A DNA stretch of 64,000 nucleotides from the NCBI GenBank assembly GCA_015178975.1, contig WHVD01000035.1, positions 679,153 through 743,152 of the forward strand, written 5' to 3'. Numbering within the stretch: position 1 is the first letter of the stretch; each line of letters begins with the position of its first letter. The translations under genes and the position numbers were made by a program. Shown in pieces: positions 1 through 62,828 of this stretch. The DNA is from Hysterangium stoloniferum. Taxonomy: Eukaryota > Basidiomycota > Agaricomycetes > Hysterangiales > Hysterangiaceae. A model generated the notes under the pieces. The model was not told the origin of the DNA. It ran no database searches and saw only the letters and a program-made list of their open reading frames with translations.

Positions 1-1018
1 TGTGGAAAGTTCTGTGGACGAGAGTGGATAGATGTGTCCTAGGGTGGCTGGGCGCCATCTTCGAGATCGATTTTTAAGTCATATTCTCTGTGAGGTGGAA
101 GCCGGTCAGCTTTTTGCTTGCTAAAAACATCCGTGAAGTCATGATATTTCTCCGGGATGCCTTCTAGGTCAGCGGCTTGCTCAGATTTGGATACCAGGAT
201 TGAAAAATGTCCAGTTGCTTCATCAATTTTAAGTTGATAGTGAACGCCTGGGATCCATCCATTTTTGAAGCCCTAATAAAAGCTGCAGCATTAATCAGAG
301 AAATAGATGCTGGTGCCGTGGGTTCTGGGGAAGCTATGGGTGTCGTAGGGATCACAGGAGTCCTCGAGACTGCAGGTGCCGGGAAGGCCATGGGTGCCGT
401 GGAGGCTGGGATGGGCGCAGTTTCCTTGGCTGCCATGGGAGTCCGGAATGTTATACTGTTAGCTATCCAGTCAATCAATGGATTGTAGCGGGTAAGCCAG
501 TTATGTCCTAGGACCACCGAACAACTTGAGTCTAACTGGGTCACATAGAAAGTGACCAATTGAGATGTTCCACATGGGAAACAGATGGGTAAATCACAAG
601 CTTGGGTAACAACTGAATTACTTGTGCCATCGAAGAGGTGGAGACCGACAGGATTTATCGAATAAGTTGACAAAGAATTTTTTTGCGTGAATTTTGTATC
701 TAAAAAACAATAAGTCGAGCCGGAATCTATGAGAGCTGAAAAAATGAATTTTGTAATCATATTAGACATAAGTTTAACGAAAAATGAATCAGAATGTGAA
801 AGAGCGGATGCATTGAGACGGGTAAACTCTTGAATGCACAGAGAGGCAACGCAACCCCCAACCCGTGCGGAGTCTGTGGGGTTGCTTACTCTTTTTTTGA
901 ATTGGAAGCCGGTTTGTCCTTCGACGGGGTTTCCATGGAAGCCTTGGCTGTTTGACCCTTTGAAGAGTTTGCTTTTGCCAGCGGACATTCTGGGACTCGA
1001 TGACTGGGTTTCCTGCAC
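1..1018 (-). pseudogene. Ty3/gypsy pol, protease to start of RT (gypsy-1, partial)
   Basis: This is the beginning of a gypsy pol whose remainder lies beyond the left edge. The frame is open from before 1018 down to 164 and contains the retropepsin active site ALIDSGSTYCFLD, followed by a DGTSN and GHNWLTRYNPLIDW region very like the pol at 59217-62828. Around positions 215-235 the reading frame changes by one base. From there to position 1 the continuation (EKYHDF..VFSKQKADRL..) matches the start of the gypsy-2 reverse transcriptase in another frame, so the copy carries at least one frameshift. Pol begins in the -1 frame relative to gag, just upstream of the gag stop. Most CpGs are retained, so decay is recent. 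Confidence 0.85.
892..898 (-). promoter_or_regulatory. -1 ribosomal frameshift heptamer between gag and pol
   Basis: On the minus strand the gag frame reads TCA AAA AAA GAG TAA, which contains the canonical slippery heptamer A_AAA_AAA two codons before the gag stop. The pol frame is the -1 frame and is open straight through the site. A downstream stimulatory structure was not assessed. Confidence 0.6.
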
Positions 1019-1980
1019 AAGAGACAGAGGTTGTTGTCCATACGACGTTGTCTTTCCTGTGGGGTCAATTTGCCATCGGGTCCGAGTTTGCCTGAGAGGT
1101 CGGGTTTTCCGGCTTGCTTGCTGGACTGTTGACCCTTGTTATTGTCCTTGTTGTTATTGTTGTTGTTTGAAGACTTTTTATCGTTCTTCTTGTCAGATTG
1201 CGTGGAGTTCTGGTTGCTAGTTGACGAATTATTGTTGTTGTTTTTATTGGCCGTGGACTTGTTCACCTTGTCCGCGGAGGTCTCATGGGCAACTTCTGTG
1301 TGATGTTCCCAATAATGTGCGTCCACGTTTTGAGCTTTGAGGTGCATACGGGACAGGGTTTTTGGCTTGCCATCTTCTCCTTTCGAGACTTCATCTTTCA
1401 GGTGGGATGGCAGACCGGCGTAAAATTGGTGGAGAGTGGGATTGCCCCACTGACAACGAGCTGCAAGATTATTGAATTGGACGATATAGTCCATGATGCA
1501 CTGCGTGTCCTTCATACGAAGATTTGTGAGACTATTCTCGGCTTCTCCTGTTGGGTCATATGGGCCGAAGTTAGTTTCAAGCTCCTCAACAAAAGCCTCC
1601 CAATTGTCGAGCCAGAGCGGCTCTTCCTCGGAAATCCCGCTAAAAGCCGGTTCGAACCATTTCAATGCAGATCCCAACAAATATGACAGTGCGTAGTTGA
1701 CTTTTCAGGAGTCCATGGAGAATGCAGCAGATCGATCGCGGAAATTGAAGCGACATTGCATGAGGAAAGTAGAGAGTTTGTTTGGGTTGGAACCTGTGAA
1801 GGGTTCCAGAGCATTGACTTTTGACTGTGGAGGTTCTTGTTTCTTTTTCTTTTGTTCTTCGAGCAGGTGCATCATGAATTTATCTATAGTACCTGCTAAA
1901 AATTTAGAAGTAGGATCCCCCAAGTGCGGTCGTTGACTAGGTGGAGGATTTTCGACACCTTTGCCCTTGTCGGGGGTCAC

Positions 1981-11136: not shown

Positions 11137-11190
11137 GGCTCTTTATATTAATAACATACAATAAACAAGCCATCCTAATTAATTGCTCAA

Positions 11191-14100
11191 ATGACTACCC
11201 TGAACAAAATTAAGAATTATGAAATAAGCACTGGGAGTGCTTACCAAGTCTTTTCGAAGTTACGCAAAGACAATTATTTTACTTGGAGTGCGAGCATGAA
11301 AACTGTGCTGGAGTCTTTGAACCAATGGAAGGTTGTAACTGGAGAACTGGTGGATCCAGTATGTGCAGATTCAAAAATTCCTATGAAGGAGGAGCTAGAG
11401 ATCAAAGAGGCCTGGGAGCTTCAAAAGAAGAGGGCCTACAGCGAAATAATGCTGCATGTTGAAAACGAGCCCAGGGTGGCTATAATGGTGGATAGTAATC
11501 CAGTCAGGGCATGGGAAACTTTGAAGATGACCTACAGGACACGATTGGCAAATAGTTGTGCGATGCTACTATCAGAGCTCATTTGTATGCGTTACGATGG
11601 GACAGGAATTATCGAATACAAATCTCAGATGGATTCTATAAGGCTTAAACTATTGGAGGCTGGTCATGCCATCACAAATGCCGACTACCTCAGCCTATTC
11701 ATGAGTACACTGCCCGAGGATTTCAATATAATGTCAACAACAATCGATTATGATGTTGATACTGTCAAAGAAGTAGTCAATAAACTGTTACAAGTCGAGA
11801 TTAGAAAAGAAATATGTCCAGGCTATGGCGAAGGTTCCGCATTTCATGCCCAGAGGTATTGAAGTTCCACATTTCGTCCTCAGAGGGGTATCAGTATGCA
11901 AAGAGGAGCGTATCGAAATAGGGGTTGTGGTTGTGCCGCCATTCTGCAAGGAATACAGATCAGGAGGAGTAATCTGCAATCTGGTTGTTTCAAATGTGGG
12001 GATTTGTCACATTGGGCAAGTGATTGTCCTAAGAGAAAGCAGAGATATGCTCAGCGATCTGAAAATTGGAAGAATCAAAATAGAAGTAATGACTCATCTG
12101 GAAATACACCATCTCCCTCAGTCGCAAGTAGGGGAATGTTTACCACCTTCAAATCCACATTCTTCCTGAGCAAGGAGAGTGTGCCACATAAGTATTTCCT
12201 GGATTCCACAGCATCAGGACATTATGTGCCGAGTATGTGTGACTTACATGATTTTATGGCATATAAAAATCCGAAGAAAATCCAAATGGCAAATGGTGCT
12301 TACTGTATATTCATGCCAGAGGTATTGGAACATTGCATTTCAAGGTTACGAAACATGGACTGGAGTTTATAGGCAAAATTCCCAACATTGAATGGACTCC
12401 AGAAGTTAAGGTGCAACTCCTTAATCCCACGCAGTTTTTCAAGGATGGATATCACATTATGTTGAGCAAAACTGGTTCTACAATTGTCAATTCATCAGGC
12501 CACACACTCATTGAGGCGAATGAGAGGAGTAATGTATACCCTTTCCAGCTGGATACAATCCCCGTGTCACCACCAGTATGCGAATATACGAATTTATCAG
12601 ATGATGAATTACAAAATAGGTTGGAAGACATACCTATAATATTTTCTGTGAGTTCAACATGCGATATTATGCGATGGCATCAGCATTTGGGGAATTTGAG
12701 TATGAATGCTATTAGGAATCTTGTGTGACATTTTGCAACCAGGATGGAAATCAAAGAAATTGAAAGTTTTGAAGCTGACTGCATTGCATGTATTGAGGGT
12801 AAACAGCGCAGAAACCCATTCAAAACTGGATGTACCAGAGCGACGAAGTTGGGAGAATTACTCCATATGGATCTTGCTGGACCTATGGAAATGATAAGTT
12901 TTGACAAAAAGTGTTATTTCATTATTGTTGTTGACGACTTCTCCCATGTTGTATAGGTTGAAACATTAGCAAGCAAGCTTGAAATGGTGTGCAAAATAAA
13001 GGAATATATAACTCAACTGGAGATGTTATTCAATATGAGGGTCCAGGGAGTTATGATGGATAATGGAACTGAGCTAATAAATTTGGAATTTAGAAGCTAT
13101 CTGTTATCGAAAGGTATACATAGCTTTATTTACTTCAGTGCCATATACGCTGCAGCAAAATAGTGTTGCAGAAAGAGGTATACGCACCATTATGGAAGGG
13201 GCAAGAACAATGTTATATGCAATGAAAATAGTGGAAGGTGCACGAAACTTACTATAGTAAAACTCCCCAAATTCTTGCAGTCAATCATGGTCAAAACGAT
13301 GGCATATTTGAGGAATCAGAGTCCATTGTGTGCAAACAATGGACATACACCTCTTGAATGAATAACTGGAGAAAAGCCGGATTTATCACATTTGCGGATA
13401 TTCGGAAGTCAGTTAGTGTGGCAGTTCCTAAGCAAAGATGTCAGAAGTGGGACTCACATTCAAAGATGGGTTATATGGTTGGGTATGAACCGTATTCATC
13501 TGGATATTTAGTGTGGTTCCCTGGAATGAGAAGGATCAAAAAAGTATGAGATGCAATATTCCATGAAGATGTGATGAATTTGCCATCACTGGTGCCTTAT
13601 GGAGATGAAGGTCAGTTTAGGGATATAAATACCATAACTCCTATCCAACCCGGGAGTGAGCCTCAACCTAGACTCACGATCCATATCCCACCTCATCCTC
13701 GACCTATTGAAGAAAAAGAGGAGACTACGATGAGGGAAGAGTCTCAATTAGTGTCAAATGTACCTGACTATCCTCATGGAGTAACAAGATCTGGTAAAGT
13801 ATGAGAAAGAATTCAGAGTTCATTGTCAGTCAAAGAAAAGGAATTATAAGATTCTAATGTACCAGTTGTTTTCTCGACTTTGGGCAATCTAACGATAGAG
13901 GAGGCATTGAATATGCTGGGAGACAAAGGATTAGCTTGGGAAGAAGCTAGACAGATGGAGTGGAAGAATATGGTAGAACATAATGTATTTGGCACACCTG
14001 AAGAACCACCACCAGGAACATGTGTTTTAAAAACCGGAATGGTGTGTCGTGGATCGTACAAGAATGGTGAACTAATAAAAAGGAAAGTACGAATCATCAT

Positions 14101-15233
14101 AAAACGATTTAATCAAATTCCTGGATTACATTTTAACGAAACGTATGCACCAGTCATGAAGTGGGAAACATTCCGAATTTTACTGGCCCTGGGAGCAATG
14201 ACAAATTCAGCTATACGTCAATTTGATGTCAAATCGGCATACTTACATGGGACGATGAAAGAAAAGGTTTGGGTTCAACAACTGGAGGGGTTTGAAGAAC
14301 CCGGCAAGGAGATTTAGCATTACTGTTATTGAAGGCTCTATATGGAACAAAACAGGGAGGCAATGAGTGGAGAAAAACACTATATGATTTTATGGTTAAA
14401 GAACTCACCTACCTGGTTCTGTTCCGATTTTGACAGCGCTACATTCTTCAAAATATGGGATGATGGAAGCTGGGCCATAGTTGCATTTTTGGGTGGATGA
14501 TGCAACTGCTGTAGGTGATGAAAAATGGCTTCTAGACCTTGAAAAGGAATTCCATGAACAATTTGGAATTTCAAGTGAAGGTGAGACCCATTGGATATTA
14601 GGAATGAGTATCTGTCGAGATGCTGAATTGAAATCAGCATTAATATCACAGAAGGAATATATTGAAAATATAGTGAAGAAGTTCAATGTACAAAATTCCA
14701 AACCAAACCAAACTCCCATATCACTTGGAATCAATTTCGCATCTATTATTCACCCAGATACTACAGAAGAACAAAATGAAATTGTGGAATTGCCTTATCG
14801 TGAACTCATTGGAAGTTTGATGCTTGTAGCTACAGTATCACATCCAGATATTGTGTATTCTGTTAACAAATTATCTCAATATTCATCAAATCCCACGAGA
14901 ATGCATTGGAACTTAGCTAAACATATCCTGCAATATTTATACACGACTTGCAATTTTGAGCTTCAATTGGGAGGACAAGCTCTTTGTTTGCATGGATATT
15001 CAGATGCCAATTTCACAGAGAATCAAGAGGATAGACATTCAACAAGAGGATATGCGATCTTTTTAGGTTTGGGAGTGGTATCTTGGTCTTCGAGGAAGCA
15101 ATCAACAGTCGCCCTTTTCATCCACAGAAGTGGAATATATTGCACTTTTGGAAGTGGCTCATGAAATTATGTGGATGCAACATTTCCTTGAAGAACTCAA
15201 TATAATATATGAAGAACCGATGGCAATTTTGGA
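11191..15233 (+). pseudogene. Ty1/copia Gag-Pol polyprotein, broken (copia-2)
   Basis: The order is gag, protease, integrase, RT, RNase H. Gag is open at 11191-11862 (YQVFSKLRKDNYFTWSASMK). A zinc knuckle CFKCGDLSHWASDC lies near 11990. The protease region FLDSTASGHYVPS has Thr where the catalytic triad normally has Gly. The integrase has a GKQRR linker, HMDLAGPME, and MDNGTELINLEF. RT has FNETYAPVMKWETFRILLAL, FDVKSAYLHG and WVDD (usually YVDD). RNase H runs to EYIALLEVAHEIMW in shifted frames. About eight stops and frameshifts interrupt it. CpG loss is moderate. Confidence 0.9.
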
Positions 15234-52163: not shown

Positions 52164-52341
52164 GTACCCCCCTGTTAGGCCAAAGTCCTAGAGGTGATTA
52201 GGTACAAGGTGTTGAACATCAGTTACATATTATGTGTTGTGAAATTATGCAAATTTGGAAGTGGAGAGTTTTGGCTGCTGGTCTGAGTATAAAAACTTCC
52301 AAATATTCAAATTAATGATTTTTTTCTTAACCATGACTTGC

Positions 52342-54256
52342 ATGCCAATTCATTATCCGCTATTTGCCACCACACCAGAAGATTCAGACACTGAAATTGC
52401 CATACTCACAAAAATGTTGAAAGTTGAAGAACTTCAATGAAAACAACAGAGGACGGAGGAGTTGAAGCAACAACAAGAGGAGGAGGAGTGTGTGTTGATG
52501 TGGGAATTGAAGGAGGCAGAAGAAGTGGAAAAATGCAAGTTGGAGTGGGTGAAGGCAGAGAATGAAGTGGAGGAAAAAAGGAAGAAATGGTTGTGGAAGG
52601 TTACAGAAGATCAGAGGTTGCGGGAAGAGGCAGAGAAGAAATGGCAGATGCTGTGGCAGAAGAGCAGTGGTTGAAAGAGAAACAGAATGGAAAGGTAAGT
52701 GAACCTGTAAATGTCTGTGTGTCACTATTAAATGGTAAACAACAGCAAAAACCCAATGAAGTGGAGGAAGGGGAAGAGGCTGCTGGGCCTGTGAGTCCAA
52801 AGGTAAGTGATTTTGTAAGAGTTTCAGAATATGACTAATTTCTGAAACAGAAACAAAAAACCAGGGCTCTGGAAAGAATGGATACTGTGCATGAAGTTCC
52901 ATGCCAGTGATGTGCAAGCCAGGTTCTTACTTGTTGGAGACAGAAGGTCAAATGGGGTGGAACTTGCTTTCCCTGTGCAGTGAACAAAATTTTGTGCTGT
53001 CTTGCCATTAAACAGACTCCAAAATGTGAAAAGGCTCCAAAGGTTGAAAAGGCAGGGACAATGGAGAGGGCAGAAAAAATGGCAATTGTGGAACCCTTGG
53101 AAATGGACAAGCCTATGGAAGCTGGGGTGCTGAACATCGGTGATGATACCAGTATCAGGCTCCTCAGAGATACTGTTAATGGAATGATTTTTATTGGGAC
53201 AGAATTGATGAAGGTTCAGGAAACAATAGAGTTGTTACGACCATGTCGCAACCCTATCGGTCCCGAGGTTATCGCCACTTGTCAACGTTTCAAGTCATCC
53301 TCTCGGAAACCATCGGCCCCGAAGCTGACGAATGTTTTCGTGAAGATCAAACTCCGTTTACGCCCACGTCAAAACAACTCGTATTGTCTGGTCAAACTTT
53401 GATACGTCCCCTTTATTATGTTGATCCGTTCAATCTTATGTTTCGCATATGTCTATCTATATTTGTAGTCCTTGAACTATTTCCTTTTATTGTAATCCCA
53501 CTCTCGGTTATCATCGGCCTCCGAACTAATCATAAACTTCCCGTTCCTAGTCAAGCTTATTGTTAATACCGTGTTCCGCCCTTCTCCCCATTAGTAATTT
53601 CCAGATGCCTGTTACTTGTATATGAACCCACTGTAGTTGTAGTTACTAGGCAATCAGAATATTGACTCAGAATACCCTCATACGCCTGTATCAGTCTCAT
53701 ACTAAGAATCCCCCCATCTGCCTTCGCGTGCGCTCGCCCACTCCCGGCCCCGACCCCTTGGCCCGACGCTCGACTTGTCCTTCGATCCCGATCGGTATCA
53801 CGCCGAAAGGTACTCACTAGGATTAGTCTTCGCCCGCCCGAAATTTAAGGACATCCTACGGATATTTGCGAGGGCGCAGCACATAAGCTGAAGCCAAGTC
53901 CTTCCGATCGGTCCCTGTCGGCCACCGACATTAGTCAGTTTTCAGTTCTTAACAAGAGTGTCATAGTGAAATCCAAGAGAAAGGTTTCCGGATATTGAAT
54001 CAGAACTTCCAGAGACATATGTAATAAGCTCCTGGACAAGGTGATGGTCAGCATCAGTGTTATTGCAGTTTCTGAAAGGTATGCCAATAAGGAAAAAGGT
54101 GAGCCAAATGATCCATTGGCAGATTTAGTTGAGAACAGATGGGTGTTGGGAGAAAAGTTGGAAAGTGAAGATGAGGATGTACAGGAAATGGTAGAGAGTG
54201 TAGAGATTGCAAATGGAATGGAGGAAGGATTTGGAATGCTGGAAACTTTACAATAA
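52342..54256 (+). pseudogene. Decayed copy of the antisense Zn-cluster gene of the gypsy element
   Basis: Homologous along its whole length to 57973-59127. It has a TATA box tataaaaac upstream (about 52288), ATG at 52342 (MPIHYPLF, then TPEDSDTEIA), the Lys/Glu-rich coiled coil, GT-AG splice sites at corresponding places (gtaagtg and ctgaaacag), and the cysteine cluster at about 52910-53000 with all six Cys and the same spacing. There are several TGA/TAG stops, many at former CGA or CAG codons. LTR C is inserted at 53233. The C-terminal part (DKVMVSISVIAVSERYANKE, then DPLADLVENRW) follows at 54040-54256. Confidence 0.8.
53233..53954. mobile_element. Solo LTR, family C (722 bp), inverted
   Basis: TGTTACGACCATG to GTTCTTAACA with perfect target duplication agagt (53228-53232 and 53955-53959). 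Close to identical to 41403-42124. CpG-rich inside a CpG-depleted host element, so much younger than its surroundings. Confidence 0.92.
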
Positions 54257-54344
54257 TTGTATCTTTATTTTTTCAACTTGCAAATTATTTTTTGTGTGAA
54301 AGAGTGTTGGATTGGAAGTGTTGGTAAATAGAATTGGAAAGACA

Positions 54345-54636
54345 GAAGAATCAGAGTGATGATAACGGTCTGGGTTTGCTAGGATAAGCAGTGTGGAAGT
54401 CAGTAACAATTCCATAGCATGTCCAAGTTCTATGGCCAATATCCATGATGTTTCCTCATTGGTACCTTCATAACCTGCCCATTTGACCAAACAAAGCAAT
54501 TTACAAGTATGTTGGCATTTGTTGATTTTTGAATCCAAAATCTCGGAAACTTTGAATTCAGGTTCTCCATCAATAATGATTGGAGGGGGCAGGGTTGATT
54601 ACATTTTGGGATATTGTTAGGAACACAAGGTTCTAA
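54345..54636 (-). pseudogene. Old gypsy copy: pol C-terminus with chromodomain
   Basis: The minus strand reads the integrase tail (EPCVPNNIPK..PPPIIIDGEPEFKVSEILD-like) and the chromodomain (CKLLCLVKWAGYEGTNEETS, then WILAIELGHAMEL). It is collinear with the end of the gypsy-2 pol at 59217-59500. Everything upstream in pol is deleted at the junction with LTR B (54632-54637). Confidence 0.8.
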
Positions 54637-57225: not shown

Positions 57226-57788
57226 TGTTAAGTGCCGTGTCGGGAACTTATTCCGGAACTATCAGGAAGTCACCGGGAAGTCGGAAACTCGTGGATAGGG
57301 TCAGGACGTCGGCTTCAGCTTATGTGCTGCGCCTCTACGCAAACGCTCAATGTCCTTAATTTCGGAAATGAACTAACGACGGAAGATATGGATATTCAGA
57401 GTTCCGAAGAGTTCCGAATATCGAGCGTACAGAAAGACGGGAGGAGGAATAAGAAACTAAGTCGATATCAGATCTAAAGTAAAGTACAAATTCGCGGAAA
57501 CTAATATAAGTCTACTCGTTATTGTACTACAAACTGAGACCATAATAAGACGGAAACGGAAGTGTTCTTAAAATGGAAATACAATAAGACATATTAGGAA
57601 GACAATATTCCGAGACGGGAATACAACAACAAACGAGTGAATACTTGTCAACGGACAAATTACCAAATGCGGAACAAACGAAGAACGCGGATGATACGGT
57701 AACTATGATGTTCCGTAGTCGGATATCGGATATCGAAAGTGGGAGATCGGAAGTCGGATATTGAAACATCCGGGAACGGGTCGTAACA
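57226..57788 (-). mobile_element. Gypsy-2 3' LTR (family A, 563 bp)
   Basis: TGTTAAGTGCCG to GGTCGTAACA on the plus strand. CpG-rich and nearly identical to the solo LTR at 19167-19750. Left flank gccac would be the target duplication; its partner is beyond the right edge of the window. Confidence 0.92.
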
Positions 57789-57799
57789 GTACCCCCCTG
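57789..57799 (-). promoter_or_regulatory. Polypurine tract of gypsy-2
   Basis: On the minus strand AACAGGGGGGTAC directly abuts the LTR start TGTTACGACC, the normal position for the plus-strand primer of reverse transcription. It is preserved beside the old LTR at 52164. Confidence 0.75.
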
Positions 57800-57916
57800 T
57801 TAGGCCGAAATCCCATAGAGGCGATTAGGTACTGAGTGTTTGAAGCGACAGCTGACTGTTATGTGTCGTGAAATTTACGCAATTATGGAGGTGAGAGTTT
57901 CGGTTATTATTCTGAG

Positions 57917-57924
57917 TATAAAAA
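57917..57924 (+). promoter_or_regulatory. TATA box of the antisense gene
   Basis: tataaaaa in the context gagtataaaaacctccaaatattc lies about 50 bp upstream of the ATG at 57973. The old copy keeps gagtataaaaacttccaaat about 55 bp before its ATG although its surroundings are diverged. Confidence 0.6.
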
Positions 57925-57972
57925 CCTCCAAATATTCGAATTAACGTTTTTGTTTCTTTATCCACGACTTGT

Positions 57973-59127
57973 ATGTCGATTCGTCGGCCGTTATTCATCA
58001 CTACCCCGGAAGACTCAGATACCGAAATATCCGTACTTCAAAAGATGTCGAAGGTCGCAGAACTTCAACAAAAACGCCAGAAAATGGAGGAGTTGAAGCG
58101 ACGACAGGAGGAGAAGGAAAGACCATTGATGCAGGAGTTGAAAGATGTGGAGGAGGCGGAGAAGCGGGAATTGGAGCGGGTGAAGGCGGAAAAAGAAAAA
58201 GAGTTGGCGAGGTTGCGGAAAATGATGGAGGATCGGAGGTTGAAGGAAGAAGAAGTGAAGAAACAGCAAGAAGCTGAGGCGGCGGAAAAACGTAAGGAGG
58301 TAAGGGAAGGAAAGGTGAGTCCAATTTCATAGATTTCCGTGGTTCCAACCGATAACTGTTACGTACAGCGAAAAGCCGTGGAGGTGGAAGTAGAGGGAGA
58401 AGCTGGGCCTTCGAGTCCTAAAGTGAGTGTATCTGTAACGGGAACGGTAGTCGTTTAACTTTCGAAACAGAAACCAAAGGTCAAAGCTCCGGAACGGATG
58501 GAAATCGTCCATGAAACTCCGTGTTATCGATGTTCCATACGGAACATGACGTGTTGGAAACAGAAGGTAAAATGGGGCGGAACTTGCTATCCCTGCGCGG
58601 TTCTCAAACTTCCGTGCACCCTTGCCTCAAAAAGGGTTCCGAAAGGTGAGAAGACTCCGAAACCTAACGACGCGGGAAGTTCAGGAGCGGCCAAAGCTGC
58701 GGAAACTGAAACGTCGAAAACGGATAGTACAGGCATTGAGCTTCTCAAGGACACCGTCGACGCGTTGGTTTTTATCGGGATGGAAGTCATGAAAATGTGG
58801 GATACAATGGATCGTCATAATGATATCCAGGAGAAAGGTTTCCGTTCGTTGGTCCGGAATTTCCGGAGGCAAAACGATTTCCTGGAGAAGATGATGGTTA
58901 GTATCGGTGTAATCGTGGTATCTGATCGATTTGCCGATAAGGCGAAAAACCAGCCGAACGATCCATTGGCGGAGTGTGTGGAGCAGAGATGGGGGTTGGG
59001 AAAAGAGCCGGAAGAATCAGAGAGTGAAGATGAAGAGGTACAGGATATGGTGGAAAGTGCGGAAATTGCTGAAGAGCCGGAGGTTGGGACGGAAGGTGGA
59101 TTTGGGGTGTCAGAGACTTTGAGATAG
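57973..59127 (+). CDS. Spliced antisense gene of gypsy-2: coiled-coil protein with Zn2Cys6-spaced cysteines
   Basis: Lies between pol and the 3' LTR on the strand opposite to gag-pol and converges with pol (stops about 90 bp apart). Exons 57973-58314, 58369-58422 and 58471-59127; introns of 54 and 48 bp with GTGAGT donors and TACAG/AACAG acceptors. The product is 350 residues. Residues about 20-114 form a Glu/Lys/Arg-rich coiled coil. After a short linker a cluster CYRCSIRNMTC, then WKQKVKWGGT, then CYPCAVLKLPC (about residues 147-178) has the spacing C-x2-C-x6-C-x10-C-x2-C-x6-C of fungal Zn2Cys6 DNA-binding domains. Then come a Lys/Thr/Ser-rich stretch, a helical region (DTVDALVFIGMEVMKMWDTM) and an acidic C-terminus. 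No retroviral domain. The role is unknown; DNA binding is an inference from cysteine spacing only. Confidence 0.75.
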
Positions 59128-59216
59128 ATTTAATAATATATTTTTTTTGACTTGCAAAACCTAAAACGAGTGTGAAAACGGAAGTGTCGGAAGTTGATCA
59201 GAAAGGAACAGAAAGA

Positions 59217-62200
59217 TTAGAGTGATGATAAAGGTCCGGGTTTGCCTGGATAAGCCGTGTGGAAGTCAGTAACAATTTCCATAGCATGTCCAAGTTCCGT
59301 GGCCAATATCCATGACGTTTCCTCGTCGGTACCTTCATAACCTGCCCATTTAACTAAATAGAGCAATTTACAAGTACGTCGGCGATTGTCGATTTTAGAA
59401 TCCAATATTTCGGAAACTTCGAATTCGGGTTCTCCATCAATGATGACCGGAGGGGACGGAGGTTGAGTACGTTCCGGGAATGAGTTAGGAACACAAGGTT
59501 CTAACATGGAAACGTGGAAAATGGGGTGGACTGCTCGCATACTGTCGGGAAGACGGAGAGTCCATGAAAGTGAACCGGCTTGTGCTATAATTTCAAAAGG
59601 TCCTAAGAATTTCTCAGCGAGTTTTTTAGAAGGTCGGGTAGTACGGAAGAATTGAGCTTTTACAAAAACCTGATCACCAACTTTAAATTTAGGAGGCGGG
59701 ATCCTGTTTTTGTCCGCGGAACGTTGATAATGTTCCTGTGCGGAAGAAATAGCTTTCCGAAGTTCTTGATGTAATTCGTCGAGATCGGTAATAAATTCTT
59801 GAGCACGGACCGAAGCCAAATCTCGTTCGGAATGTACTGTGAGATTCGGATTATAGCCTTTATTGGCGAAGAAGGGAGATATGCCGGTGGTTGCATTTGG
59901 AGAGTTATTGTAGGCGAATTCCACGATCGGAAGAAGGGATTTCCAGTTGTCCTGTTGATAATTACAATAGATGTGGAGATATTGTTCCAATGTTTGATTA
60001 ACACGTTCCGTTTGTCCATCACCTTCTGGGTGATATCCTGAGGTGAAGTGTAGTTTCATGTTGAGGGCTTTTCCGAGGGCCTGGAAGAAATGGGAGACGA
60101 ACTTGGAGCCTCGATCGGAAGTTACGTGAGATGGAACTCCGTGTTTGGAAAATACGTGAATAATGAAAAGTTCCGCTAATTGTAAGGACGTGATTGTATC
60201 ATGAGTGGGTATGAAAATGCCTTGTTTCGAGAATTGGTCCACAACGACTAGAATGGATGTAAAGCCTTCGGAAGTCGGGAGTTGTTCGATAAAATCCATG
60301 GAAATTGAATTCCAAGGTTTTTCTGGTATCGGGAGTTGCTTGAGAAGGCCGTACGGCTTATGCCTCTGGGTTTTGGAGCGTAAGCAGGTGGTGCATGACT
60401 TACAGAACTGAGTTACGAAATCTCGGAGGTTGGGCCAAGTATATTCTCTACGGATTAAACCAAGAGTATTGTTGATGCCGTAATGTCCAGAGATTGGATG
60501 ATCGTGTTTATACTGAAGTACGCGGAGTCGAAGATTGTCGGAATCTGGAACGTAGATACATCCATCGAGACGGATAAAACCTTGAGAGTCTTGTGACCAT
60601 CGGGGTTGGTTGGGATTGTCGGGAATGTCTAAATGTGGCTTGAGGGCCGGGTCGGAAGTGAGTGCGGAAAGGATATCTTGATGTAATTGCTCAATGTCCA
60701 TAATCATGACGCTACGCATAATTGGATAGTAAAGGGAAGTTGCTCGGATAGATGCGGAAAGTTGTTGCGTTGTAAAAACCGGTTTCAGGTTATGTGGATT
60801 AACAACAGCATAGTTACTTTCCCCCTCTTTAGGATAGACGTCCCATCGTCGAGTCATGGCATCTGGTTTTCCACCAAGACGTCCGGGTCGGAAACGGATT
60901 ATCATGTTGAAAGCGGAAAGAAATTCAGACCAACGGGCCTGCCGGCAGGTTAAAAGTTTAGTGGTAGAAAAATATTCGAGATTTTTGTGATCGGTAACGA
61001 CGTCAACGGGAGTTGCGGAACCTTCGAGATAATGGCGCCAATGTTTGAAAGCTTCAAAAATTGCCAAAAGTTCCTTATCATGAACGTCGTAATTGAGTTC
61101 GGATACTGAAAGTGTCCGAGAAAGAAATGCGACCGGATGAATTTCACCGTCGGACTCTTGAATGGAAAGAATCGCGGCAATTGCATAATCGGAAGCATCG
61201 GTTTCCACAATAATCGGAAAATCAGGTTTCCAATGGGAAAGAATCGGGGCCGAAGTGAAAGCATTTTTCAAAGTCTGGAAAGCGGAGCGGCATTTATCGT
61301 CAAAAACCCATGGTTGAGTTTTACGGGTAAGACGAGTGAGCGGTACTGTAATATCCGAGTAGTTCCGAATAAAACGACGGTAAAAGTTGGCGAAACCTAA
61401 AAATGATTGAATGTCCTTGACCTTCCGTGGTTCGGGCCAGTCACGGACAACTTGAACCTTGGTTTCATCCATACGGAGACCATCAGGGCCGATGATGAAA
61501 CCTAAGTATTCAATAGAATCCATGTCAAAATAACATTTTTTACCGTTGGCGAAAAGACCGTTTTTACGGAGTCTTCGGAAGACTTCACGGACCTGTTCAT
61601 CGTGAAGAGCGGGATCCTCGGAAAATACCAAAATGTCGTCCAAATAGACTATAACACATACGTCAAGCATGTCGGAAAATATATCATTTACAAAACGTTG
61701 AAAAGCGGAAGGGGTGTTGGTCAGGCCGAATGGCATAACCAACCATTCAAAGGATCCATAGCGAGTCCGAAAAGCAGTTTTCCATTCGTCACCCTCGGCA
61801 ATTCGGACCAAATGATAGGCGTGTTTGAGGTCTATTTTGGTGTAAATTCGAGCTTTCCGTGGGGCGTCGAGTAAGTCGGTAACGAGTGGGAGTGGATACT
61901 TATCTTTCCGTGTGATGGAATTTAATCCTCTGAAATCGACACAGAGTCGAAGGGAACCATCCTTTTTACGGACGAAAAGGACGGGTGCTCCATACGGAGA
62001 CTTTGAGGGACGGATAAAACCTATTGACAAATGTTCATCCAGGAACTCCCGAATAGACGAAAGTTCCGATTGGGATAATGGGTAAATAGGTCCTAATGGA
62101 GGGTTTGAACCGGGCTCAATATCGATTTTTAAGTCGTAGGGCCTATGTGGTGCAAGCCTGTCAGCTTTTTGCTTACTGAAAATGTCCACGAAATCATGGT

Positions 62201-62828
62201 ATTTTTCGGGAACTCCTTCCAGATCGGCTTTTAGCTCGGATAATTCTGGAGTCGCAAAATGTCCAGATGCTTCATCAACTTTTAAGCTGATCGAAAAACA
62301 TTGCGAACCATCCAGTTTACTCGCCCTAACAAATGCCGAAGCATTGATGAGAGAGATTTTTGGGGGCTCGGAAGTTTCGATAGAAGCCGGAGATGCCGTT
62401 GATGCTGAAAAGGCGTTGGCCGGAATAGACGCTGCAGGAGGAACGGAAGTGTCGGGAGTCCGGAAAGTAATACTGCCCAATACCCAGTCAATCAACGGAT
62501 TATATCGGGTGAGCCAGTTGTATCCAAGAACTGCCGAACAGCTAGAGTCCAACTGTGTTACGAAAAATGTAACCGTCTGGGATGTTCCACAAGGGAACTG
62601 AATAGACATGTCGCAGGCTTGAGTAATTGCCGTATTGCTAGTGCCGTCAAACAAACGCAAGGGAATTGCGGGAACAGAATGGAGTTTCAGATTATGTTTC
62701 GTGGCAAAGGTGGTATCTACAAAACAGTGTGTGGAGCCGGAATCTATTAGAGCTCGGAACACTAAATTTCCAGGAAAGTCAGAGACGAGTTTTACAAATA
62801 ATGAATCGGGATTAGAGAGAGCGGACAC
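59217..62828 (-). CDS. pol: Ty3/gypsy chromovirus Pol polyprotein, intact (gypsy-2)
   Basis: A single open frame of 1203 codons from the first Met; the frame is also open upstream to the frameshift site, so the natural product is probably Gag-Pol. Domains in order: retropepsin (ALIDSGSTHCFVD, Asp29), reverse transcriptase (LCVDFRGLNSITRKDKYPLP, WLVMPFGLTNTPSAFQRF, VYLDDILVFSE), RNase H (IVETDASDYAIAAIL, ELNYDVHDKELLAIFEAF), integrase zinc-binding region (HDHPISGHYGINNTLGLI.. CKSCTTC), integrase core (SMDFIEQLPTS, TSDRGSKFV, GYHPEGDGQTERVNQTLE), and a C-terminal chromodomain (CKLLYLVKWAGYEGTDEETS). No stop or frameshift, CpG preserved, so this is a young and possibly active element. Confidence 0.95.
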   Translation of the reverse strand: MSALSNPDSLFVKLVSDFPGNLVFRALIDSGSTHCFVDTTFATKHNLKLHSVPAIPLRLFDGTSNTAITQACDMSIQFPCGTSQTVTFFVTQLDSSCSAVLGYNWLTRYNPLIDWVLGSITFRTPDTSVPPAASIPANAFSASTASPASIETSEPPKISLINASAFVRASKLDGSQCFSISLKVDEASGHFATPELSELKADLEGVPEKYHDFVDIFSKQKADRLAPHRPYDLKIDIEPGSNPPLGPIYPLSQSELSSIREFLDEHLSIGFIRPSKSPYGAPVLFVRKKDGSLRLCVDFRGLNSITRKDKYPLPLVTDLLDAPRKARIYTKIDLKHAYHLVRIAEGDEWKTAFRTRYGSFEWLVMPFGLTNTPSAFQRFVNDIFSDMLDVCVIVYLDDILVFSEDPALHDEQVREVFRRLRKNGLFANGKKCYFDMDSIEYLGFIIGPDGLRMDETKVQVVRDWPEPRKVKDIQSFLGFANFYRRFIRNYSDITVPLTRLTRKTQPWVFDDKCRSAFQTLKNAFTSAPILSHWKPDFPIIVETDASDYAIAAILSIQESDGEIHPVAFLSRTLSVSELNYDVHDKELLAIFEAFKHWRHYLEGSATPVDVVTDHKNLEYFSTTKLLTCRQARWSEFLSAFNMIIRFRPGRLGGKPDAMTRRWDVYPKEGESNYAVVNPHNLKPVFTTQQLSASIRATSLYYPIMRSVMIMDIEQLHQDILSALTSDPALKPHLDIPDNPNQPRWSQDSQGFIRLDGCIYVPDSDNLRLRVLQYKHDHPISGHYGINNTLGLIRREYTWPNLRDFVTQFCKSCTTCLRSKTQRHKPYGLLKQLPIPEKPWNSISMDFIEQLPTSEGFTSILVVVDQFSKQGIFIPTHDTITSLQLAELFIIHVFSKHGVPSHVTSDRGSKFVSHFFQALGKALNMKLHFTSGYHPEGDGQTERVNQTLEQYLHIYCNYQQDNWKSLLPIVEFAYNNSPNATTGISPFFANKGYNPNLTVHSERDLASVRAQEFITDLDELHQELRKAISSAQEHYQRSADKNRIPPPKFKVGDQVFVKAQFFRTTRPSKKLAEKFLGPFEIIAQAGSLSWTLRLPDSMRAVHPIFHVSMLEPCVPNSFPERTQPPSPPVIIDGEPEFEVSEILDSKIDNRRRTCKLLYLVKWAGYEGTDEETSWILATELGHAMEIVTDFHTAYPGKPGPLSSL

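Follow-up and report, generated by a model that had tools for sequence, protein, structure and literature searches.

A 64,000-nucleotide stretch of the genome of the truffle-like mushroom Hysterangium stoloniferum (contig WHVD01000035.1, positions 679,153 to 743,152; hereafter the window) contains a chromodomain-type Ty3/gypsy retrotransposon (chromovirus) that carries an additional gene, antisense to the element, between pol and the 3' long terminal repeat (LTR). Conservation among genomic copies and purifying selection on the encoded protein indicate that this is almost certainly a real, selected and spliced protein gene, and rule out a chance or non-functional open frame. Carried by basidiomycete gypsy elements, the gene is old, under selection and interrupted by two introns; its novelty lies in the predicted splicing and in a Zn2Cys6-like cluster of six cysteines. 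In the reading that we favor, at about even odds, its product is nuclear, binds DNA and regulates the element that encodes it.

Architecture, copies and families of the antisense gene

The gene occupies the plus strand (57973-59127), the minus strand of the window being the sense strand of the element, and is organized as follows (a slash within residues marks an intron).

57226..57788, minus strand: 3' LTR of the chromovirus, with TG...CA ends (sequence and edges of the LTR match in copies)
57789..57800, minus strand: polypurine tract, GGGGGG on the sense strand, adjoining the 3' LTR (sequence; assigned from its position)
57917..57924, plus strand: TATA box of the antisense gene, TATAAAAA, some 50 bases 5' of its ATG (sequence, copies)
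57973..58314, plus strand: exon 1, starting with ATG at 57973 and encoding the charged, probably coiled-coil N-terminal part
58315..58368, plus strand: intron 1, GT-AG, phase 0 (copies; same position in families 2 and 3)
58369..58422, plus strand: exon 2, 54 bases in 62/62 copies (sequence, alignment)
58423..58470, plus strand: intron 2, GT-AG, phase 0, inside a basic stretch (SPK/KPKVK) (copies)
58471..59127, plus strand: exon 3, encoding the Zn2Cys6-like cluster, a linker, a C-terminal helical part and an acidic tail, then the stop
58522..58617, plus strand: six-cysteine cluster C-x2-C-x6-C-x10-C-x2-C-x6-C, residues 150-181
59217..62828, minus strand: pol, with protease, reverse transcriptase (RT), ribonuclease H, integrase and chromodomain (domain matches)

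The spliced frame encodes 350 residues followed by a stop codon, and both introns (54 bases for intron 1, 48 for intron 2) read GTGAGT...CAG in phase 0, an in-frame stop being encountered if translation continues through either of them. The gene is convergent with pol, the two stop codons lying about 90 bases apart, and the gene-side edge of the LTR is located before the gene start. An LTR match was obtained for 60 copies and in most of them starts within 2 bases of this edge of the 57226-57788 LTR; the 5' LTR of the window copy is out of reach because the window ends at the contig end (743152). The pol domain matches, including a Chromo match of 25.7 bits (cut-off 25.1), bear out the initial annotation of the window, which had described an antisense gene in a chromovirus, in the interval from pol to its 3' LTR, and the TATA box, ATG, three exons, two GT-AG introns and 350-residue product that it described are confirmed by the sequence and by 62 copies. 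Transcription from the gene's own TATA promoter, and splicing, are predicted from the sequence.

A DNA search of the genome gave 40 scored copies out of 347 candidates, and an exon-3 protein search, in which the best 150 of 673 candidates were scored, gave amino-acid identities of 72-100%, with a stop-free exon 3 at about 115 of these best 150 places by manual count. Sixty of the 150 places, the window and one further copy (L002) constitute the 62 aligned copies (2.9 kb) of what we term family 1; eight distant places with shorter sequence lie outside this set, five of which are included in an alignment of 21 rows (A1). This choice by exon-3 similarity favors an open exon 3; exon 1 and the splice sites lay outside the query. 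The stop codon is kept in 62/62 copies, the ATG in 61/62 and TATAAAAA in 60/62, and the GT...AG boundaries are kept in 62/62 copies for intron 1 and in 61/62 for intron 2, which is partly deleted in one copy. Exon length is divisible by three in 58/62 (exon 1), 62/62 (exon 2) and 59/62 (exon 3) copies; the far shorter introns are still divisible by three in 52/62 and 53/62. Mean divergence among the copies is 23% in intron 2, 14% in intron 1, 12% in exon 1 and 9% in exon 3. By a strict test the frame is unbroken in 33 of the 62 copies, the other 29 having a stop, a frameshift or a truncation. The gene also accompanies the element through the genome: at least 89 of 109 family-1 pol places have an antisense gene place within 400 bases, gene places being the best 150 (130 of 132 pol matches entered this count, the other 21 being those of family 2, described below).

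All 62 copies contain the introns, and neither exon-exon junction has a match in the genome with up to three mismatches allowed, a result that is neutral on splicing; the unspliced exon 2-intron 2 junction has 261 matches. Intron loss is not expected, because in the sense genomic RNA the introns are present as their reverse complement and would not be removed. The claim that introns on the antisense strand persist through retrotransposition fits these observations, every copy being intron-bearing and no spliced copy having been found.

Homologous genes are present in related elements. What follows rests on ten family-2 places and a single place for each of families 3 and 4, a sample rather than a census. 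In family 2, where the final 300 residues of pol show 83-84% identity and the chromodomain scores 25.0 bits (cut-off 25.1), a gene with a TATA box and a charged exon 1 is found in the same place and orientation behind pol, with introns at EGK/RKA and PGPSSPK/KQK and the cluster CNRCTKRGRTCHPRTNGRGRTCQECADQKLGC (x10 spacing; exon 3, best 150 of 493 candidates scored), and an antisense gene stands beside 18 of 21 pol places when the lists are compared by eye. Two places of this family are rearranged: at L078 a gag-like open frame, identified by eye, runs into the end of exon 1, and L079 has lost the sequence that begins at exon 2 and reaches almost to the stop codon. A third gypsy family, with an RT match and a 1304-residue open frame, carries AGK/RKAT, SPQK/KARK and the cluster CSGCNDRNTECNRKAGRGPGCYQCAHLKARC (x9 spacing) behind a TATA-like box; of the best 150 of 1376 exon-3 candidates scored, 19 are identical in protein, and this family looks very young. 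The intron positions are identical in the three families.

Outside these elements, a profile search with exon 3 matched three proteins, P0001, P0003 and P0002, and a second profile gave the same three. P0001 and P0003 are the NCBI models BU17DRAFT_62310 and BU17DRAFT_85753 of H. stoloniferum itself, hypothetical proteins with fragments of these element genes. P0002 is a 227-residue metagenomic protein (two contigs, no context) that is about 41% identical over exon 3 and keeps the six cysteines, their spacing and the core CWKQ...WGG.CYPC that it has in common with most family-1 copies; its frame appears to enter from intron 2 (...FSQ/KQR). No homologue was found in the viral contigs searched. 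When exon 2-3 similarity was compared with 1000 shuffles in which the cysteines were fixed, none matched that of families 1 and 2, 1 and 3, 2 and 3, family 1 and P0002, or family 3 and P0002; 64 reached that of family 2 and P0002. From their sequences the antisense genes of families 1, 2 and 3 are homologous, and the antisense frame that the initial annotation proposed to look for in other gypsy elements is present in families 2 and 3, with the same intron positions.

The distribution of the gene bears on a quite improbable role in chromatin targeting, in which the protein would assist integrase and chromodomain in selecting, or in coping with, the chromatin at the insertion site. The gene does occur in families with a chromodomain both over and just under the cut-off; against such a role, a fourth element (L090, one copy) with a clear chromodomain of 30.6 bits has no antisense gene in the approximately 2.1 kb behind pol.

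Upstream in the window lies a more ancient version of this element end (52165-54400, 69% identical) in which CpG has largely decayed by eye, and its antisense gene is broken at 53233-53955 by sequence 95% identical (723 bases) to the family-2 LTR, seemingly a solo LTR of family 2 inserted into the gene.

Selection on the protein and mosaic structure of the gene

The ratio of nonsynonymous to synonymous divergence (dN/dS), measured in families 1 and 2, indicates purifying selection rather than the neutral pattern that the initial annotation had set against its reading. For the spliced frame of family 1, dN/dS is 0.20 in the deepest pairs (codon bootstrap 0.16-0.26) and 0.25 (0.20-0.31) in 31 disjoint pairs, which still share one tree, all other pairs being mutually dependent. 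The value is 0.22 for exon 1 in the deepest bin and 0.105 (0.04-0.23) for the cluster region (residues 148-183). The closest pairs have 0.44, and the value declines with depth to 0.20, as expected if copies decay after insertion. In the two deepest bins the control frames give 1.34-1.48 (+1), 0.98-1.05 (+2), 1.06-1.15 (antisense a) and 1.34-1.37 (antisense c), the deepest bin alone yielding 1.34, 1.05, 1.06 and 1.37; antisense frame b is low (0.27-0.28, and 0.27 in the deepest bin) because it shares third positions with the gene frame, as expected. In the 21 closest pairs the frames separate poorly (0.44 for the gene frame versus 0.49-0.86 for the wrong frames). Family 2 gives 0.20 (0.14-0.28) from seven copies, a sample without L088 (distant, exon 1 unalignable), L082 (partial) and the rearranged L078 and L079. 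With pol at 0.17 in the deepest bin, versus 0.20 for the antisense gene, the gene is conserved like other proteins of the element, under purifying selection similar to that on pol.

These values also bear on two alternatives that dispense with a protein useful to the element. It is very improbable that the antisense RNA, rather than the protein, is what matters, through double-stranded RNA and silencing or its avoidance: the convergent genes could pair their transcripts, and antisense non-coding RNAs are known in other elements (PMC7264820), but a dN/dS of 0.20 together with invariant cysteines reflects selection on protein, and as sole function the RNA is strongly disfavored. Scarcely credible is a captured host transcription-factor gene or a chance frame useless to the element; LTR elements are known to capture genes (PMC7264820), but the many copies, the three families with the same introns and the purifying selection speak against this explanation, which we reject on the 62-copy conservation and dN/dS. 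Since the gene is maintained by selection in several element families, the element very probably uses it, perhaps for self-control or for evasion of silencing.

The gene is more diverse than its surroundings. Mean differences are 0.066 in the LTR, 0.106 in the gene and 0.046 at the end of pol, and dS in the deepest bin is 0.44 for the gene versus 0.19 for pol. In profiles of 13 pairs, 120-base gene blocks differing by 20-30% alternate with blocks differing by 2-5%. Among 53 of the 62 copies, ten gene blocks (58030-59229) have 3 to 9 types each, variously combined, whereas 12 pol blocks have one type (nine blocks) or two (three blocks) and four LTR blocks two or three. In the aligned region (57790-60700, 62 copies), the antisense gene is a mosaic of segment types apparently exchanged between elements with similar pol and LTR. 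The simplest reading of this patchy divergence is that template switching shuttles old, divergent gene pieces among otherwise similar elements.

Predicted protein, proposed function and candidate target sites

The cysteines of the cluster are residues 150, 153, 160, 171, 174 and 181, and their arrangement is the sole pattern of its kind in the six frames of the window. All six are invariant in 62/62 copies, the 2-6-10-2-6 spacing noted at the outset is confirmed, and the six-cysteine consensus C-x2-C-x6-C-x5-12-C-x2-C-x6-8-C fits the 62 family-1 copies as well as family 2 (x10) and family 3 (x9). Residues 20-112 are 59% charged, with no glycine and one proline; by this composition, the sole basis, the N-terminus, the part originally described as a long coiled coil, is probably helical or a coiled coil. 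A basic stretch of the protein spans the intron 2 position, and weak models suggest C-terminal helices and an acidic tail.

We propose an antisense accessory gene of the chromodomain-type element with a TATA promoter of its own next to the inner edge of the 3' LTR; the transcript read from this promoter would be spliced twice to encode the 350-residue protein. The long charged helical N-terminus may mediate self-assembly, the basic stretch nuclear import, the Zn2Cys6-like cluster binding to nucleic acid, most likely DNA, and the helical C-terminus dimer or partner contact. The protein would then return to the nucleus, bind CGG-type sites of its own element and, once bound, raise transcription of the element or counter its silencing; zinc, nuclear entry, DNA binding and the effect on the element are all steps that we infer. 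That it acts as an activator or anti-silencing factor rather than a repressor is a tentative suggestion, and a doubtful one.

Unlikely is the converse, that the protein represses its own element in the manner of copy-number control or latency, as HBZ does in human T-cell leukemia virus type 1 (HTLV-1). A self-limiting protein would likewise be kept by selection, and the layout is like that of HTLV, where antisense transcription starts from a 3' LTR promoter and the protein made is nuclear (PMC11963269, PMC7264820). Against repression, selection within the element favors amplification and the gene-bearing families are numerous, although restraint is still compatible with these numbers.

Gal4-class proteins bind CGG triplets, and a CGG-type word, CGGAA, is a candidate binding site, an exploratory lead from the examination of many words. 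Among the 389 5-mers with four or more occurrences in pol, CGGAA ranks first when compared with synonymous-codon shuffling (38 versus 16.3), with an excess on both strands (11 versus 4.9 and 27 versus 11.3), and TCGGAA ranks first of 272 6-mers (19 versus 5.4). CGGAA is likewise the top of 94 5-mers in the antisense gene (16 versus 8.0, codon shuffle) and fourth of 36 in the LTR (14 versus 8.6, trinucleotide shuffle), and nine related representatives, the window included, have an excess over the terminal 1.5 kb of pol, with z values of 3.5-5.1. CpG sites of the copies read TG in about 8-14% and CA in 8-11%, by class, which would fit host methylation; CpG retention at CGGAA in the antisense gene gives p 0.03.

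Several observations weigh against a DNA-binding regulator that recognizes such sites. The Zn_clus profile (PF00172) scores 8.7 bits on family 1, over 35 of 39 model positions, far under its cut-off of 21, and has no match in family 2 or P0002; the profile check proposed by the initial annotation thus failed, PF00172 membership is rejected, and because of this score we call the cluster Zn2Cys6-like rather than a member of the family. AlphaFold models reached mean pLDDT values of 43 and 48, too poor for use or for a fold search. The full 350-residue query matched no protein at E 0.001, in a collection probably poor in spliced fungal proteins, so that absence means little; no gene model with such splicing was accordingly found in it. 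As regards target sites, CpG within CGGAA is no better retained than other CpG in the LTR (p 0.61) or pol (p 0.78), CGGAA is mildly raised at most in the family-2 pol part (8 versus about 5), and no motif agrees among the LTR, gene and pol part of family 2. Of the 27 TTCCG occurrences in pol, 19 fall in a single codon phase, so a codon-pair habit may account for the excess. Thirteen other open reading frames of the window, too few in sites to serve as a good control (0-3 each), mostly have no excess; one overlapping repeat frame among them has z 4.0 on two sites. The hint on targets is thus limited to CGGAA enrichment, with results against it.

Further profile and structure searches gave weak matches. 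PF00172 matched 7 of 21 family-1 copies at any score and family 3 partially (10.1 bits), and at the 83 PF00172 places of the genome no antisense gene place was noticed by eye. Against solved structures the profile had no match, the cluster alone had three at E 1.5-1.7, including PPR1 at 1.7, and family 2 had nine weak matches with unrelated names.

The protein could bind RNA or protein instead. We consider it unlikely, to much the same degree as repression, that it is an RNA- or particle-associated accessory protein, acting in RNA export, packaging or the pre-integration complex, with the cysteines forming an RNA- or protein-binding zinc module. The spacing of the cysteines is that of a DNA-binding class, and the present results contain no sign of RNA or particle association; in its favor, the cluster falls under the Zn_clus cut-off, and there are retroviral accessory proteins for which roles of this kind are discussed (PMC7264820).

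An extended form of the DNA-binding proposal joins the mosaic structure to the candidate sites. The spliced antisense zinc-cluster protein would know its own chromovirus by CGGAA sites built up element-wide, even at synonymous pol positions, and would prevent silencing; its alleles would be reshuffled between sub-families by template switching, and types of self-recognition would turn over as in VANC proteins. Taken as a whole, this scenario is unlikely.

Neighboring elements and relation to known systems

Remains of other retrotransposons are found elsewhere in the window. Near its start, a Retrotrans_gag match of 40.8 bits (889-1704, minus strand) marks the gag of another Ty3-type element. 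On the plus strand, the copia-type gag at 11179-11859 scores 67.1 bits and an RT fragment of copia type at 14481-15161 scores 28.3 bits (under the cut-off of 31.6); by these matches they are the remains of a Ty1/copia element.

An antisense gene, brtn, was reportedly described by Zhao et al. in 2011 in the Boty element of Botrytis cinerea and Sclerotinia. As cited in PMC7264820, PMC8365987 and PMC4227169, brtn is an antisense gene of a fungal chromodomain gypsy element, the chromodomain of Boty being given in PMC4227169. Boty resembles the present element in having an additional gene in antisense orientation that sits between pol and the 3' LTR (PMC7264820, PMC4227169); it differs in its ascomycete host, and the passages that cite brtn mention no zinc cluster or introns, the two being compared by description only. 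The initial annotation named antisense frames in plant gypsy elements and knew of no spliced zinc-cluster example in a fungal one; it is corrected in that an antisense gene of a fungal chromodomain gypsy element is in print. In the literature searched by title and start of abstract, subscription papers being mostly outside, no spliced antisense zinc-cluster gene of a fungal LTR element appeared.

In plants, antisense accessory genes between pol and the LTR are already known from Grande and Retand (PMC11963269, PMC7264820). GENE23 of Grande, in the same position, is like our proposal, and counts in its favor, in having its own promoter and a protein reported as nuclear (PMC11963269, PMC7264820); functions are called unknown, and a review calls for attention to antisense and spliced transcripts (PMC7264820). 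The Retand lineage differs in being non-chromovirus and in bearing TRP28 (PF04195) or other domains instead of a six-cysteine cluster. The present protein has no Pfam match to TRP28 or the other domains of plant antisense open reading frames.

HBZ of HTLV-1 is spliced, as predicted for the present gene; it is a bZIP protein rather than one with a cysteine cluster, and belongs to an infectious retrovirus. It is likewise antisense, read from the 3' end, and nuclear (PMC11963269, PMC7264820). With the Gal4-class Zn2Cys6 proteins (PF00172) the antisense protein has in common the cysteine spacing and a weak match over most of the model; it differs in its sub-threshold score, in the lack of any match in family 2, in being retrotransposon-borne and in its CWKQ...WGG.CYPC core. 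VANC proteins of the Arabidopsis VANDAL elements, which bind short motifs dense in their own element and remove methylation, offer a parallel in that they are element-encoded and that recognition of such a motif is proposed here (PMC5735166). They are unrelated proteins of a DNA transposon, their motif is mainly non-coding, and their binding was shown by chromatin immunoprecipitation and electrophoretic mobility shift assay, whereas ours is a proposal from sequence only (PMC5735166). Fungal DNA transposons carry TET enzymes (PMC12730594), and a counter-silencing role is plausible because both VANC and these TET-bearing transposons exist.

The antisense genes of LTR elements are long familiar but lack an assigned function; here the conserved six-cysteine cluster offers a handle for tests of zinc and DNA binding, as do the many copies, the candidate site CGGAA and a single genome with three homologous families that have identical intron positions. 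The present gene also illustrates how introns can survive in an element with an RNA intermediate, by lying in a gene on the strand that never serves as genomic RNA. Lastly, should the protein act against silencing, the elements armed against host methylation would include basidiomycete retrotransposons alongside plant VANDAL elements and the TET-bearing fungal DNA transposons (PMC12730594).
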